Shown here: positions 6,940 through 11,665 of the stretch, piece after piece | Numbering within the stretch: position 1 is the stretch's first letter | How the letters are laid out: each line of letters begins with the position of its first letter | Source: Phycisphaerales bacterium | GTDB taxonomy: Bacteria > Planctomycetota > Phycisphaerae > Tepidisphaerales > Tepidisphaeraceae | Assembly (NCBI GenBank): GCA_020853095.1 | Contig: JADYZN010000055.1 | Location: 1 to 64,000, forward strand | Direction of reading: 5' to 3' | Length of the DNA stretch: 64,000 nt | Translations under genes and position numbers: made by a program | Notes under the pieces: model-generated | The model's database searches: none | The model's input: only the letters and a program-made list of their open reading frames with translations | Told to the model about the DNA's origin: nothing

Positions 6940-8790
6940 ATGAATCACGTGCGTAACGACATCCGTAACGTTGCCATCATCGCCCACGTTGACCATGGCA
7001 AAACCACCCTGGTCGACGCCTTGTTGCGCCAATCGGGCAACTTTCGCGACTCGCAATTGCAGCAGGAATGTCTGCTGGATTCCAATCCGCTGGAACGCGA
7101 ACGCGGCATCACCATCCTGGCCAAAAACGTCTCGATCAACTACACCGATTCATCGGGCAACACCACCAAGATCAACCTGATCGACACCCCGGGCCACGCT
7201 GATTTTGGCGGCGAAGTCGAGCGCGTCCTCTCCATGGCCGATGGCGTTTTTCTGCTGGTCGATGCGGCCGAAGGCGCCATGCCGCAAACCCGTTTTGTGC
7301 TGAAAAAAGCCTTCCAGCACGAGTTGCGCCCCATCGTCGTCATCAACAAGATCGACCGCTCCGACGCCCGCGCCAACGAGGTGCTCGACGAAGTGTTCGA
7401 CCTGTTCGTCGAACTGGGCGCCGATGATGAGACGTTGGATTTTCCGGTCCTCTACGCCAGCGGACGGGCCGGCGTCGCTTCGTGGTCTTTGGAGGAGCCG
7501 GGCAAGGACATTCAACCCGTTTATGAAGCGTTGTTGCGCCACGTTCCGGCCCCGCACGGCGACCCGGACAAGTCGCTGCAAATTCAGATCACCACGATTC
7601 ATTACAACGATTACGTCGGTCGGATCGGCGTCGGTCGAATTTATAACGGCATCATCCGTTCCGGCCAGCAGATCAAGATCATTCGGCGCGACGGCAAGGA
7701 AATCACCAGCCGCGTGCAGCAGGTGCAGGTGTTTGACGGCCTGGGCCGGCGGACGGTCGAACAGGCCGAAGCGGGGGACATCGTCGCACTGGTGGGCCTG
7801 GAATCGGTGGACATCGGCGACAGCATCTGCGACCCGACCAACCCCCAGCCGCTGGCCGCACAGGAAATCGAGCCGCCGACGCTGACGATGCTGTTCAGCG
7901 TCAACGACTCTCCCTTTGCCGGCAAGGAAGGCAAGTACGTCACCAGCCGCAACTTGCGTGAAAGGCTGTTTAAGGAGCTGGAATCCAACGTGGCACTGAA
8001 GGTCGAGGAGACCGAAAACCGCGATGCGATGAAAGTATCCGGCCGCGGTTTGCTGCATCTGGGCATCCTGATCGAAAACATGCGCCGAGAGGGGTATGAA
8101 TTGTCGATCTCCAAACCGCACGTCATCACCCGCAAAAACGCCGAGGGGCAGATCGAAGAACCGATCGAGTACCTGGTGGTCGATGTGCCGGAAAAAAACA
8201 TGGGGGGCGTGATGGAGCTGGTCGGCAACCGCCGTGGCGAACTGGTCCGCATGGACAACCGCAATGGCCAGGTCCACCTCGAATTCACCATCCCCGCACG
8301 CGGCCTGATCGGCCTGCGTACGCGGATGCTCACGGCCACCCAAGGCCAGGCCATCATACACCATAACTTCTTTGAATACGCGGCTTTACGAGGCGAAGTG
8401 CCGGCTCGCGCCAATGGTGTGATGGTCAGCAATTGTGCCGGCACGGTCAACGCCTATGCCTTGAACAACCTCCAGGAACGGGGTGTGATGTTCGTAGAGC
8501 CGACCAACCCGGTTTATGAAGGCCAGATCGTCGCCGAAAACGCCCGTGACAGCGACATGGTCGTCAACCCCACCACGACCAAAAAGCTGACCAACATGCG
8601 CACCACCTCCAGCGATGAAAACATCATCCTCAAGCCGGCGCGCAAAATGACGTTGGAACAGGCATTGGAATACATCGAGGAAGATGAGCTGGTTGAAGTC
8701 ACCCCCACCAGCATTCGCCTGCGGAAGGAATTTTTGACGGAAAACCAGCGCAAAAAATCCAATCGCAAACCGGCGACCGTCGAGGTGTGA
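6940..8790 (+). CDS. typA: Translational GTPase TypA/BipA
   Basis: Ribosome-associated GTPase of the elongation-factor family, involved in stress adaptation and 50S assembly. G-domain motifs: [15 protein letters not shown] (G1, about residues 14-28), RGIT (G2), DTPGHADF (G3) and NKID (G4), followed by domain II, EF-G-like domains III and V, and the TypA-specific C-terminal domain ending in a basic tail. 616 residues is the expected length. The start is followed directly by [16 protein letters not shown], typical for the family. It is transcribed alone, divergent from the sigma operon. Confidence 0.98.
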
Positions 8791-8820
8791 TCCGAAACCT
8801 CCGAACAGCAACATTCAGAC

Positions 8821-8857
8821 GTCGCCGTCTTGCCTGTTGTCGCGGCGGCAAAGTTTT
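8821..8857 (+). terminator. Weak terminator after typA
   Basis: Seven-base-pair stem (8821-8827 with 8843-8849, one wobble) with a 15-base loop, then AAAGTTTT. It lies 30 bases after the typA stop codon. The loop is long and the T-run short, so it is only a plausible terminator. Confidence 0.35.
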
Positions 8858-8949
8858 CCCATTTTCCCATGAAATTGGTAACGTTGGCGGGCGATGTTGT
8901 CCCATCCGCGAAATTTTAATTATTTGGCCTTGGAAGCATGAATTTTACC

Positions 8950-9234
8950 CTTGATGAGCGGGTGGGATGGGTCTATCGTGTGAGCAGTCGGAAATTTGAA
9001 CTGATCCACTGACCAATTGAAGTCGGTGGTGTCCATAAATGGGACAAGACCACGAGGAAGTTGATCGGGGTAAGGAGAGGGAGTTCATGTCGCCGACTGG
9101 AGTGAAATGCTGGTGTGACAATCAGTGGGTGAATTGATTCGCACTATAAGCCGCTTCAGGCTGGTGCCCGACCCATGGCGCCAGGTGAACTTGAGTCCCG
9201 GCCTTCCTGCGTGGGTGAGGCCGGGGCTTTTTTT
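8950..9234 (+). ncRNA. Candidate structured non-coding RNA of unknown class
   Basis: The 527 bases between typA and nuoI contain no credible ORF but many mutually compatible stems ending in a strong terminator. Seen by eye: 8985-8991 with 9093-9099 (7 bp), hairpin 9026-9053 (GTGGT+GTCC stem with a 3-base bulge), 9004-9012 with 9122-9130 (9 bp including one G-U; crosses the first helix and so would be a pseudoknot), hairpin 9149-9162, hairpin 9161-9184 (8 bp, CTGGTGCC/GGCGCCAG; shares two bases with the previous one) and the terminator 9195-9234. Landmarks of RNase P RNA, tmRNA, SRP RNA and 6S RNA were not found. The 5' end is a guess and no convincing promoter was seen. Confidence 0.5.
9195..9234 (+). 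terminator. Strong intrinsic terminator of the RNA candidate
   Basis: Nine-base-pair GC-rich stem (9195-9203 with 9219-9227, one G-U pair), 15-base loop, immediately followed by seven T residues (9228-9234). There is no coding gene close upstream (typA ends at 8790), so it most likely ends an independent short RNA. Confidence 0.85.
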
Positions 9235-9317
9235 GTTTATGGGGTGAAAAAACTGGACCTGGGGGGATATGGGGCGATAATACGGTTGGGGATTGGCAAC
9301 CGGCCGGGGTTTGCGTC

Positions 9318-9893
9318 ATGGCCACCGTCAAAGGTTATTTTCAGAACATTTTCGAGAACGTCCGCACGATCGCGATCGGGATGAAGATCACGATCAAATA
9401 TTGTTTTCAGAAGACCGTGACGGTGCATTATCCGGAGCATCGGCTGAGTTTCGCGCCGCGGTATCGGGGGATTCACGAATTTGAGGCCGACAAGTGCATC
9501 GCGTGCGACCTGTGCGCCAAGGCCTGTCCGGTGGATTGCATTTACATTGATAAAAGCGCGCCCCGCAAGATTGATAAAAAGACCGGCAAGGCGGCCGGCG
9601 GCGAGTTGCTGCGGTTCGCGATTGATTACAGCAAATGTCTGTTTTGCGCCCTCTGCACCGAGCCATGTCCGACGCTGTGTATTCACATGGGCAAGCTGCA
9701 TGACCTGAGCAGCTATACGCGAAAAGAGGTCGTGGTGGAGTTCGCGGAGCTGGCCAAGGAGGGGTTGAACACGCCGATACCGCTTTGGATGGAGAAAAAC
9801 CGGGACCGGATCGGGTGGGTGAAAGAGGAATATGACCGGGTCAAATCGCGCACGCTGGCGACGACGGCGGCGGACATCGTGGCGGTGAAATAG
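9318..9893 (+). CDS. nuoI: NADH-quinone oxidoreductase subunit I (2x[4Fe-4S] ferredoxin)
   Basis: Peripheral-arm ferredoxin subunit of complex I carrying two [4Fe-4S] clusters (N6a/N6b). Two CxxCxxCxxxCP motifs are visible: CIACDLCAKACP near residue 60 and CLFCALCTEPCP near 102. The spacing and the flanking AIDYSKC fit NuoI rather than a small ferredoxin. 191 residues is normal. It stands alone, with no other nuo gene in the window; the next gene is a transporter pair 41 bases downstream. It may be a dispersed subunit, or may serve another Fe-S reductase. Confidence 0.9.
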   Translation: MATVKGYFQNIFENVRTIAIGMKITIKYCFQKTVTVHYPEHRLSFAPRYRGIHEFEADKCIACDLCAKACPVDCIYIDKSAPRKIDKKTGKAAGGELLRFAIDYSKCLFCALCTEPCPTLCIHMGKLHDLSSYTRKEVVVEFAELAKEGLNTPIPLWMEKNRDRIGWVKEEYDRVKSRTLATTAADIVAVK

Positions 9894-9934
9894 GGTCAAC
9901 CGATGCGCATCGCGGGAACATACCGGAGGGTTGC

Positions 9935-10135
9935 TTGAAGCGGAATCGGCGGCGCATCCTGATCTACGTTGTTTTGTTGCTGGTGTGCATCGTGGCGCTG
10001 GCCGCCCCGCTGTACAACCGGCAGACGCCCCGGCTGTGGGGGATGCCGTTTTTCATCTGGTTTCAACTGGTTTGGGTGGTTGTGGCCGCGGTGGCCACGG
10101 CGGTGGCGCATCGTGCCGCGGGAGATCAGAACTGA
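9935..10135 (+). CDS. DUF3311 small membrane protein (symporter partner)
   Basis: 66 residues with a basic N-terminus (KRNRRR) and two membrane helices (about 8-25 and 38-58). The segment PLYNRQTPRLWGMPFFIWFQLVW is the hallmark of DUF3311 proteins, which commonly sit just before SSS-family symporters and are thought to be accessory subunits. The TTG start is preceded by GGAGGG four bases upstream. Its stop lies three bases before the symporter ATG, so the two are surely co-translated. Confidence 0.85.
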   Translation: MKRNRRRILIYVVLLLVCIVALAAPLYNRQTPRLWGMPFFIWFQLVWVVVAAVATAVAHRAAGDQN

Positions 10136-10138
10136 ATC

Positions 10139-11665
10139 ATGGGTACCGCGGGCATCGTCATCTTTGTCGGCTTGTTCGCATTGGTGACGATCATCGGTTT
10201 CATCGCCGCGCATTGGCGCAAAGGCGATCTGGATCAACTGCATGAATGGGGGCTGGGGGGGAGGCGGTTCGGGACGATCGTTTCGTGGTTTCTGCTGGGC
10301 GGGGATTTGTACACGGCCTATACGCTGATCGCGGTGCCGGCGTTGGTTTTCGGCGCGGGCGCGATCGGGTTTTTCGCCCTGCCATATGCGTTGATCGCTT
10401 TTATCCTTGGATTTGTCACGTTGCCGAGATTGTGGGATGTGGCCCATCAAAACGGGTACGTCACGGCGGCGGATTTTGTGCAGGGGCATTTTCAGAGCAG
10501 GACGTTGGGGGTGCTGGTGGCGATCACCGCCATCTTCGCGACGCTGCCTTATCTGGCGCTGCAGTTGGTGGGGATGGAGGTGGCACTGGCGGGGCTGGGG
10601 TTGCCGACCGGGGCGTTTTCCGGCGATCTGCCGTTGATTGTCGCGTTTTTGATCCTGGCGGCCTACACCTATTCCAGCGGATTGAGGGCGCCGGCGGCGA
10701 TTTCACTGGTGAAAGATTCGCTGATCTACGTGGTCATCATCGCCGCGGCCATCGTGATCCCGAAGCAACTGGGGGGATATGGCCATCTTTTTGATGCGTT
10801 GCCCGCCGGCAAGAAGGTTTTGACGATGACAGCGCACAACACCGGCACGGTGGGCGCTTACATGACCTTGGCGCTGGGTTCGGCGCTGGCGTTGTTTTTG
10901 TATCCTCACGCGACCACCGGCATTTTCGCGGCCAAGAATGGGCGGGTGGTTCGGCGGAACATGGCTTTGCTTCCGATGTACACCGTGTTGCTGGGGTTCG
11001 TGATGATGCTGGGATACATGGCGTACGTCGCGGGCGTGCAGCACATGCCGCAGTACGCCGGCGGATTCAAGGCGTACGGTCCCAATTACGCGGTGGTAGC
11101 GCTATTTCTGCATTCGTTTCCAGGCTGGTTCGCGGGGATCGCGCTGGCCGCGATTGCGATTGGGGCATTGGTTCCGGCGGCGGTCATGTCCATCGCGGCG
11201 GCCAATTTGTTCGCCCGCAATCTGTATCTGCCGATGCGAAAGAACGTTACAGCGCGGGAGGAGACGCTGGTGGCCAAACTGGTCTCGCTGGGGATCAAGG
11301 TGGGGGCGATCGCGTTCATTTTGCTGGTTCCGGTGGAGTTTGCGATTCAGTTTCAGCTTCTGGGGGGCATCTGGATCATCCAGTTGTTTCCGGCGTTGAT
11401 GTTGTCGCTGTACATCCCGTGGATGCGCCGGGAGGGGTTGATCGCCGGTTGGGTGGTCGGGACGGCCCTGGGCACCTGGATGGCGGCGTCGCAGGGGTTT
11501 GCCACGGCGGTTTATCCGCTGCATCTGTTTGGATGGACGTTTCCGGGATATGCCGCCCTCTATTCGGTGGTTGCGAACCTGGTGGTGACGTTGGGGGTCA
11601 GCCTGATGATTCCGCGGAACAGGTCGGGTTCGGCTGGGAAGACGGCCGAATTGGCCGTCCGATAA
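10139..11665 (+). CDS. Sodium:solute symporter (SSS family, MctP-like)
   Basis: 508-residue polytopic membrane protein with about 13 predicted helices and the SSS signature region (helices around YFGL-type motif LGGRRFGTIVSWFLLGGDLYT, about residues 40-60). Together with the DUF3311 partner it resembles monocarboxylate/organic-acid permeases such as MctP. It would import an organic acid or similar solute with sodium; the substrate cannot be read from sequence. A perfect 7-bp inverted repeat (11641-11659) spans the last codons and may form part of a transcription end, though no T-run follows. Confidence 0.9.
   Translation: MGTAGIVIFVGLFALVTIIGFIAAHWRKGDLDQLHEWGLGGRRFGTIVSWFLLGGDLYTAYTLIAVPALVFGAGAIGFFALPYALIAFILGFVTLPRLWDVAHQNGYVTAADFVQGHFQSRTLGVLVAITAIFATLPYLALQLVGMEVALAGLGLPTGAFSGDLPLIVAFLILAAYTYSSGLRAPAAISLVKDSLIYVVIIAAAIVIPKQLGGYGHLFDALPAGKKVLTMTAHNTGTVGAYMTLALGSALALFLYPHATTGIFAAKNGRVVRRNMALLPMYTVLLGFVMMLGYMAYVAGVQHMPQYAGGFKAYGPNYAVVALFLHSFPGWFAGIALAAIAIGALVPAAVMSIAAANLFARNLYLPMRKNVTAREETLVAKLVSLGIKVGAIAFILLVPVEFAIQFQLLGGIWIIQLFPALMLSLYIPWMRREGLIAGWVVGTALGTWMAASQGFATAVYPLHLFGWTFPGYAALYSVVANLVVTLGVSLMIPRNRSGSAGKTAELAVR

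Follow-up and report, generated by a model that had tools for sequence, protein, structure and literature searches.

A candidate lineage-specific small RNA of the Tepidisphaeraceae with a conserved terminator loop

The stretch of DNA analysed here (the window, 64,000 nucleotides; contig JADYZN010000055.1 of the Phycisphaerales assembly GCA_020853095.1) contains an intergenic region that a first-pass annotation had described as a structured RNA at 8950-9234. In the part examined for neighbouring genes (window positions 8001-10400), the upstream gene typA, identified by its Pfam domains GTP_EFTU and BipA_C, ends at 8790, and a nuoI-like gene, identifiable only as encoding a 4Fe-4S ferredoxin-type protein, starts at 9318. 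The RNA element between them is real, but its extent had been drawn too widely, as 8950-8985 appears to be promoter rather than RNA and the likely transcript begins at 8986 (Table 1). Both promoter hexamers are unchanged in the ortholog of a relative from the same genus (G001; the genome of the window is G000), compared with 21 substitutions in the 61 upstream columns. Since a stricter consensus scan listed neither the promoter at 8951-8979 nor the terminator at 9193-9234, both calls rest on this kind of conservation.

Table 1. Features of the predicted RNA gene (window positions).
Feature	Position	Strand	Basis or remark
Promoter-like element	8951..8979	+	TTGATG 8951-8956, 17-base spacer, TATCGT 8974-8979; hexamers same in G001 ortholog
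Predicted RNA	8986..9233 (end ~9233)	+	Start inferred from promoter, end from terminator
5' multi-branched domain	8986..9098	+	Minimum-energy fold; same topology in G001 ortholog
Closing helices of 5' domain	8986-8991/9093-9098 and 8994-9002/9082-9090	+	Minimum-energy fold
Hairpins inside 5' domain	9006-9029, 9030-9046, 9049-9071	+	Minimum-energy fold
Purine-rich stretch CGGGGTAAGGAGAGGGA	9066..9082	+	Mostly unpaired from 9072 (unpaired probabilities)
Long hairpin, apical loop GGGTGA	9099..9157	+	Octamer GTGGGTGA at 9125-9132; predicted fold
Hairpin CTGGTGCC/GGCGCCAG	9161..9184	+	Two pairs with one-sided change, still paired in G001 ortholog
Intrinsic terminator hairpin and T run	9193..9234	+	9 of 10 modelled pairs compensated, 13 aligned matches
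Conserved terminator-loop octamer GTGGGTGA, proposed contact site	9211..9218	+	Exact in 10 of 12 orthologs

Positions 8986-9236 fold at -102.6 kcal/mol (z -3.90), a value matched by none of 200 dinucleotide shuffles. The body without its terminator also folds unusually well (z -3.07; 0 of 200 shuffles as good), and the fold of the opposite strand stands out less (z -1.99 over 306 nt). The minimum-energy fold combines the multi-branched domain with three hairpins and, besides the terminator, comprises ten predicted helices, some stacked on one another; at least five stems had been counted earlier by eye. What had been taken for a nine-pair stem followed by seven T residues is indeed a terminator (helix 9193-9229, T run 9228-9234), but its helix has 16 pairs. 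A pseudoknot had been proposed from two crossing stems, of which 8985-8991/9093-9099 belongs to the minimum-energy fold. The arms of the other, 9004-9012/9122-9130, are complementary, but its probability in the nested ensemble is 0.0 and each arm prefers a local hairpin; forcing it (in a nested fold, hence without the first stem) gives -84.2 versus -102.6, a cost of 18.4 kcal/mol. The pseudoknot is thus disfavoured, as assessed from the nested-fold ensemble and a forced nested fold rather than from a pseudoknot energy. It was also observed that the hairpin loop CGACCCAU (9161-9184) could kiss UGGGU of either G-rich loop (ACCCA with UGGGU; window 9208-9218); this loop is kept in G001, and a general equivalent was not seen in the remaining orthologs.

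A covariance search against Rfam brought no family to threshold over the RNA. At gathering thresholds, the sole report in the whole window was a tRNA elsewhere, and a permissive scan of 8790-9320 returned seven terminator-like matches, all below cut-off with E of 0.17 or worse and none of them a housekeeping RNA. tmRNA, RNase P RNA, and SRP RNA had no model match in the Rfam scans and ARAGORN found no tmRNA in the window. The best sub-threshold match was Pseudomon-1/ErsA (RF01719; 19.8 bits against a gathering threshold of 50, E 0.17), which likewise has a hairpin and then a terminator; however, the match covers no more than the final 76 bases and therefore reflects generic hairpin-terminator similarity.

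When 41 genomes (the own genome and 40 relatives) were searched by BLAST, the whole element was found in the own genome and in G001 only (85%, query 1-339 of 341), where it likewise lies between typA and nuoI. Between these two genomes, the core at 9042-9159 differs by substitutions at 3 of 118 columns, the 5' part by 21 substitutions and 4 gaps in 59 columns, the 3' part by 12 substitutions and 1 gap in 74 columns, and the sequence downstream of the RNA by 22 substitutions and 4 gaps in 75 columns; for comparison, 49 of the 191 third codon positions of nuoI, the next gene, have changed. Mapped onto the fold, 77 of the 79 pairs are kept in G001 (69 unchanged, 7 held after a one-sided and 1 after a two-sided change, with 2 lost), and the differences fall on 12 of 158 paired and 23 of 94 unpaired columns. 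Folded alone, the G001 body adopts the same topology (z -3.24, 1 of 200 shuffles as good). The predicted body structure is thereby consistent with G001, bearing in mind that two sequences give consistency and no proof by covariation.

Outside the genus, nothing of the body was alignable apart from the terminator. Orthologous terminators were found in 12 of the 26 genomes of the bacterial family, from 10 of its 22 genera (G000, G001, G002, G007, G010, G013, G014, G016, G019, G020, G022, and G023). None was recognised in the other 14, several genomes being incomplete and the weak covariance-model matches having been inspected in part. A terminator pattern had matches in 9 of 298 genomes of the class and its reversed control in none, and six of the nine belong to the family (G000, G001, G010, G013, G016, and G020). 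What BLAST matched in G010 and G016 turned out to be this terminator, located immediately before nuoI, as it is in G020; the G007 ortholog also came from BLAST. Discarded candidates included class-wide pattern matches inside long open frames (G122, G014 contig C4, and G292), an additional match in G016 (C60) that looks like chance, and a match to a looser pattern within a coding gene of G009. This looser pattern was swamped by a dispersed short repeat on many contigs of G016 (e.g., L076 and L094). Present in dozens of copies, this repeat has GGGTGAGGGGTCTTGC and its inverse separated by about 60 bases and looks like a palindromic repeat family. Matches to CGTGGGTGAGGYC in G001, G016, and G010 (L042, L045, and L050) have no terminator context and look like chance. 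In a terminator-pattern scan of the collections genome_contigs (at least 118 stretches) and viral_contigs (8), 129 pattern matches were examined among the matches listed, four with T-rich tails, and none of those listed was ortholog-like; records from the window's genome or from close relatives may be missing from genome_contigs, and the scan is no proof of absence.

A covariance model built from six of the terminators (R1) and run on all 26 family genomes recovered its seeds at 55.9-68.7 bits and G016, which had been left out of the model, at 42.2 bits, and it added G014 (46.8 bits), G022 (37.2), G019 (36.8), G023 (34.0), and G002 (32.2). R1 also matched other G023 contigs twice, at 34.0 and 30.1 bits, and the weakest members are therefore not separable by R1 alone; the membership of G002, G023, G019, and G022 is based on R1 plus synteny. 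A homologous pseudouridine synthase gene lies directly downstream in G013, G019, G022, G023, and G002, one upstream gene is common to G013 and G020, and another is common to G007 and G014, with a homolog of the latter apparently present in G013 (by eye). The typA-nuoI setting claimed for the RNA holds at this locus and in G001 but is not fixed: nuoI adjoins in 5 of the 12 orthologs, 5 lie upstream of the pseudouridine synthase, and 2 (G007 and G014) next to a different gene. No further ortholog was seen when the regions preceding the pseudouridine synthase gene were inspected by eye in 14 genomes, including 8 without a recognised one. The RNA is estimated to be about 250 nt long here and 140-250 nt in relatives.

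In an alignment of 13 R1 matches (the 12 orthologs and one antisense match of the palindromic G019 hairpin), ten terminator pairs were 98.5% paired and nine showed compensatory changes, which none of 500 shuffles reached; this alignment was fitted to the model and so leans toward structure. A MAFFT alignment of six terminators was 100% paired, with 4 of 10 pairs compensated. Comparison of the homologous regions, which had been proposed as a check, thus did reveal compensatory changes in the terminator helix, and the orphan, terminated, structured RNA of the first-pass annotation is upheld: it matches no Rfam family and is kept in relatives. Ten of the 12 orthologs have the loop GUGGGUGA unaltered, and G019 and G022 have a single change each, whereas the flank on its 5' side differs between orthologs in both length and sequence. 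Because helices compensate in any terminator that is kept, a function other than termination is indicated by the loop alone. Termination as such does not need a fixed loop, and the terminator loop is therefore probably a contact site. Sequence comparison shows selection on the intrinsic terminator at two levels, the pairing of the helix and the sequence of the loop. A second copy of the octamer, limited to this genus, occupies 9125-9132 within an apical hairpin (chance of about 3% under a Markov model). The purine motif CGGGGUAAGGA recurs in 4 of the 12 orthologs, and CGGGGTAAGGA is found in G001, G007, and G014 as in G000; in G014 it lies about 100 bases upstream of the terminator, which independently supports the membership of this genome.

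The reading that we favour, with a probability of roughly 0.55, is that a non-coding RNA gene, independent and transcribed on its own, runs from 8986 to about 9233 (+) and specifies a lineage-specific small regulatory RNA with the terminator loop as its contact site. Such an RNA would act in trans through base pairing, with the G-rich terminator loop GUGGGUGA as a seed for C/U-rich sites in mRNAs and the exposed purine-rich CGGGGUAAGGA as a possible second seed or site in some relatives, and the terminator hairpin would double as 3' end and contact element. Among the attributes of a trans-acting intergenic sRNA, promoter-like hexamers of its own (kept in G001), an intrinsic terminator (12 genomes), and the lack of a supported small frame are present. 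This reading draws on the near-fixed core and identical hexamers, the fold z-score of -3.90 with a matching topology in G001, the family-wide terminators with common neighbours, the fixed loop in a compensating helix, and the return of the purine motif in G001, G007, and G014, while the body that is unalignable outside the genus, the purine motif in only 4 of 12 orthologs, the genus-only second loop copy, and the recognition of orthologs in only 12 of 26 genomes speak against it.

The main rival to a trans-acting small RNA is a protein-binding RNA (sponge or scaffold), in which a protein would recognise the GUGGGUGA loop and the purine stretch with its AGGA/GGGA motifs, and regulation would work through titration. 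A fixed loop within a variable hairpin also fits a protein site, the octamer occurs twice in this genus, and most of the purine stretch is predicted to lie outside helices; since most orthologs have neither the second octamer copy nor the purine motif, however, we regard this alternative as rather unlikely. A cis-acting leader or attenuator of the nuoI-like gene, for which the location upstream of nuoI in 5 of the 12 orthologs and the intrinsic terminator at the end of the RNA could be taken, seems improbable: the position is not constant, as 7 of 12 orthologs are located away from nuoI and five of these precede the pseudouridine synthase, and a second promoter-like element (TGGACC-GATAAT, its GATAAT kept in G001) lies between the terminator and nuoI. 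We are just as doubtful about a short mRNA or dual-function RNA, in which the frame from ATG 9087 to TGA 9137 would encode MSPTGVKCWCDNQWVN. This frame follows a ribosome-binding-like AAGGAG at good spacing and stays open in G001, where one amino acid is replaced, but this non-synonymous difference is the only one, with zero synonymous ones, against the third-position divergence of nuoI given above. Moreover, the flanking RNA is conserved equally, and reading by eye showed no matching frame downstream of the purine motif in either G007 or G014.

Two further explanations involve 6S RNA. The first-pass annotation had kept a 6S-like identity in play, for which similar length, numerous stems, and occurrence in the same genomes could be cited. 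However, the same genome has a separate 6S RNA gene (C26:106712-106943), model RF00013 gave no match with E up to 5 at 8790-9320, and the predicted multi-branched domain plus hairpins is not the long rod with central bubble of the 6S type, so a diverged 6S RNA is hardly credible. The separate 6S RNA is 90% identical to its G001 copy, which scores 35.4 bits against RF00013 (gathering threshold 46.4); it was missed by this model at E up to 1 and found through homology. As the 6S RNAs of the bacterial family reach 47.4 bits at best against this threshold, the Rfam model under-detects 6S RNA in the lineage. In G004, three 6S-like matches were seen (C205, C374, and C569), two of them without the CACCCACC stretch, which may be paralogs or stem from a mixed assembly (7% contamination). 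The other explanation, formed after the data were seen, is that the RNA antagonises 6S RNA by pairing of its terminator loop GUGGGUGA with UCACCCAC in the 6S 3' strand. In a test on 24 6S-like matches from 22 genomes, a 6S RNA was located in 11 of the genomes that carry an ortholog; it contains the exact complement in seven of these, and in one more the match holds by a wobble. However, this 6S stretch has changed in G002, G023, and G022 while the loop shows no corresponding change. CACCCACC also corresponds to the general 6S consensus of Rfam, and family genomes without this RNA, such as G005, G021, and G041, keep the stretch. Pairing across genera is thus not supported, given these uncompensated breaks and a match kept where the RNA is absent, and we consider such an antagonist very improbable.

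For the trans-acting small RNA that we prefer, the sequence evidence points to an uncatalogued family of ordinary kind, whose unusual feature is that the terminator loop is the part best conserved across genera. A more far-reaching proposal, which we consider speculative and unlikely, is a class in which the terminator loop GUGGGUGA is the sole deeply conserved element and serves one conserved partner, the body being interchangeable and rebuilt almost freely between genera; rRNA, 6S RNA, a protein, or a common mRNA motif would be candidates for this partner. Within the portions of the open-access literature covered here, on planctomycete small RNAs, RNA motifs, 6S RNA, and terminator-loop sRNAs (including PMC2864571), nothing was recognised as this RNA. 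If confirmed, the RNA family would be new, with a single, clearly marked contact element open to testing, and it would provide a clean example of an sRNA gene best conserved in its terminator loop, from uncultured lineages whose small RNAs are little described. The closest parallel is RepG of Helicobacter pylori, in which, according to the sections of PMC8295292 considered here, the loop of the intrinsic terminator is the targeting element. Both are intergenic sRNA genes with a terminator-loop targeting element, shown for RepG and inferred here; the RepG loop, however, is C/U-rich and binds G-repeats (PMC8295292), whereas the loop described here is G-rich, and we claim no sequence homology between the two.
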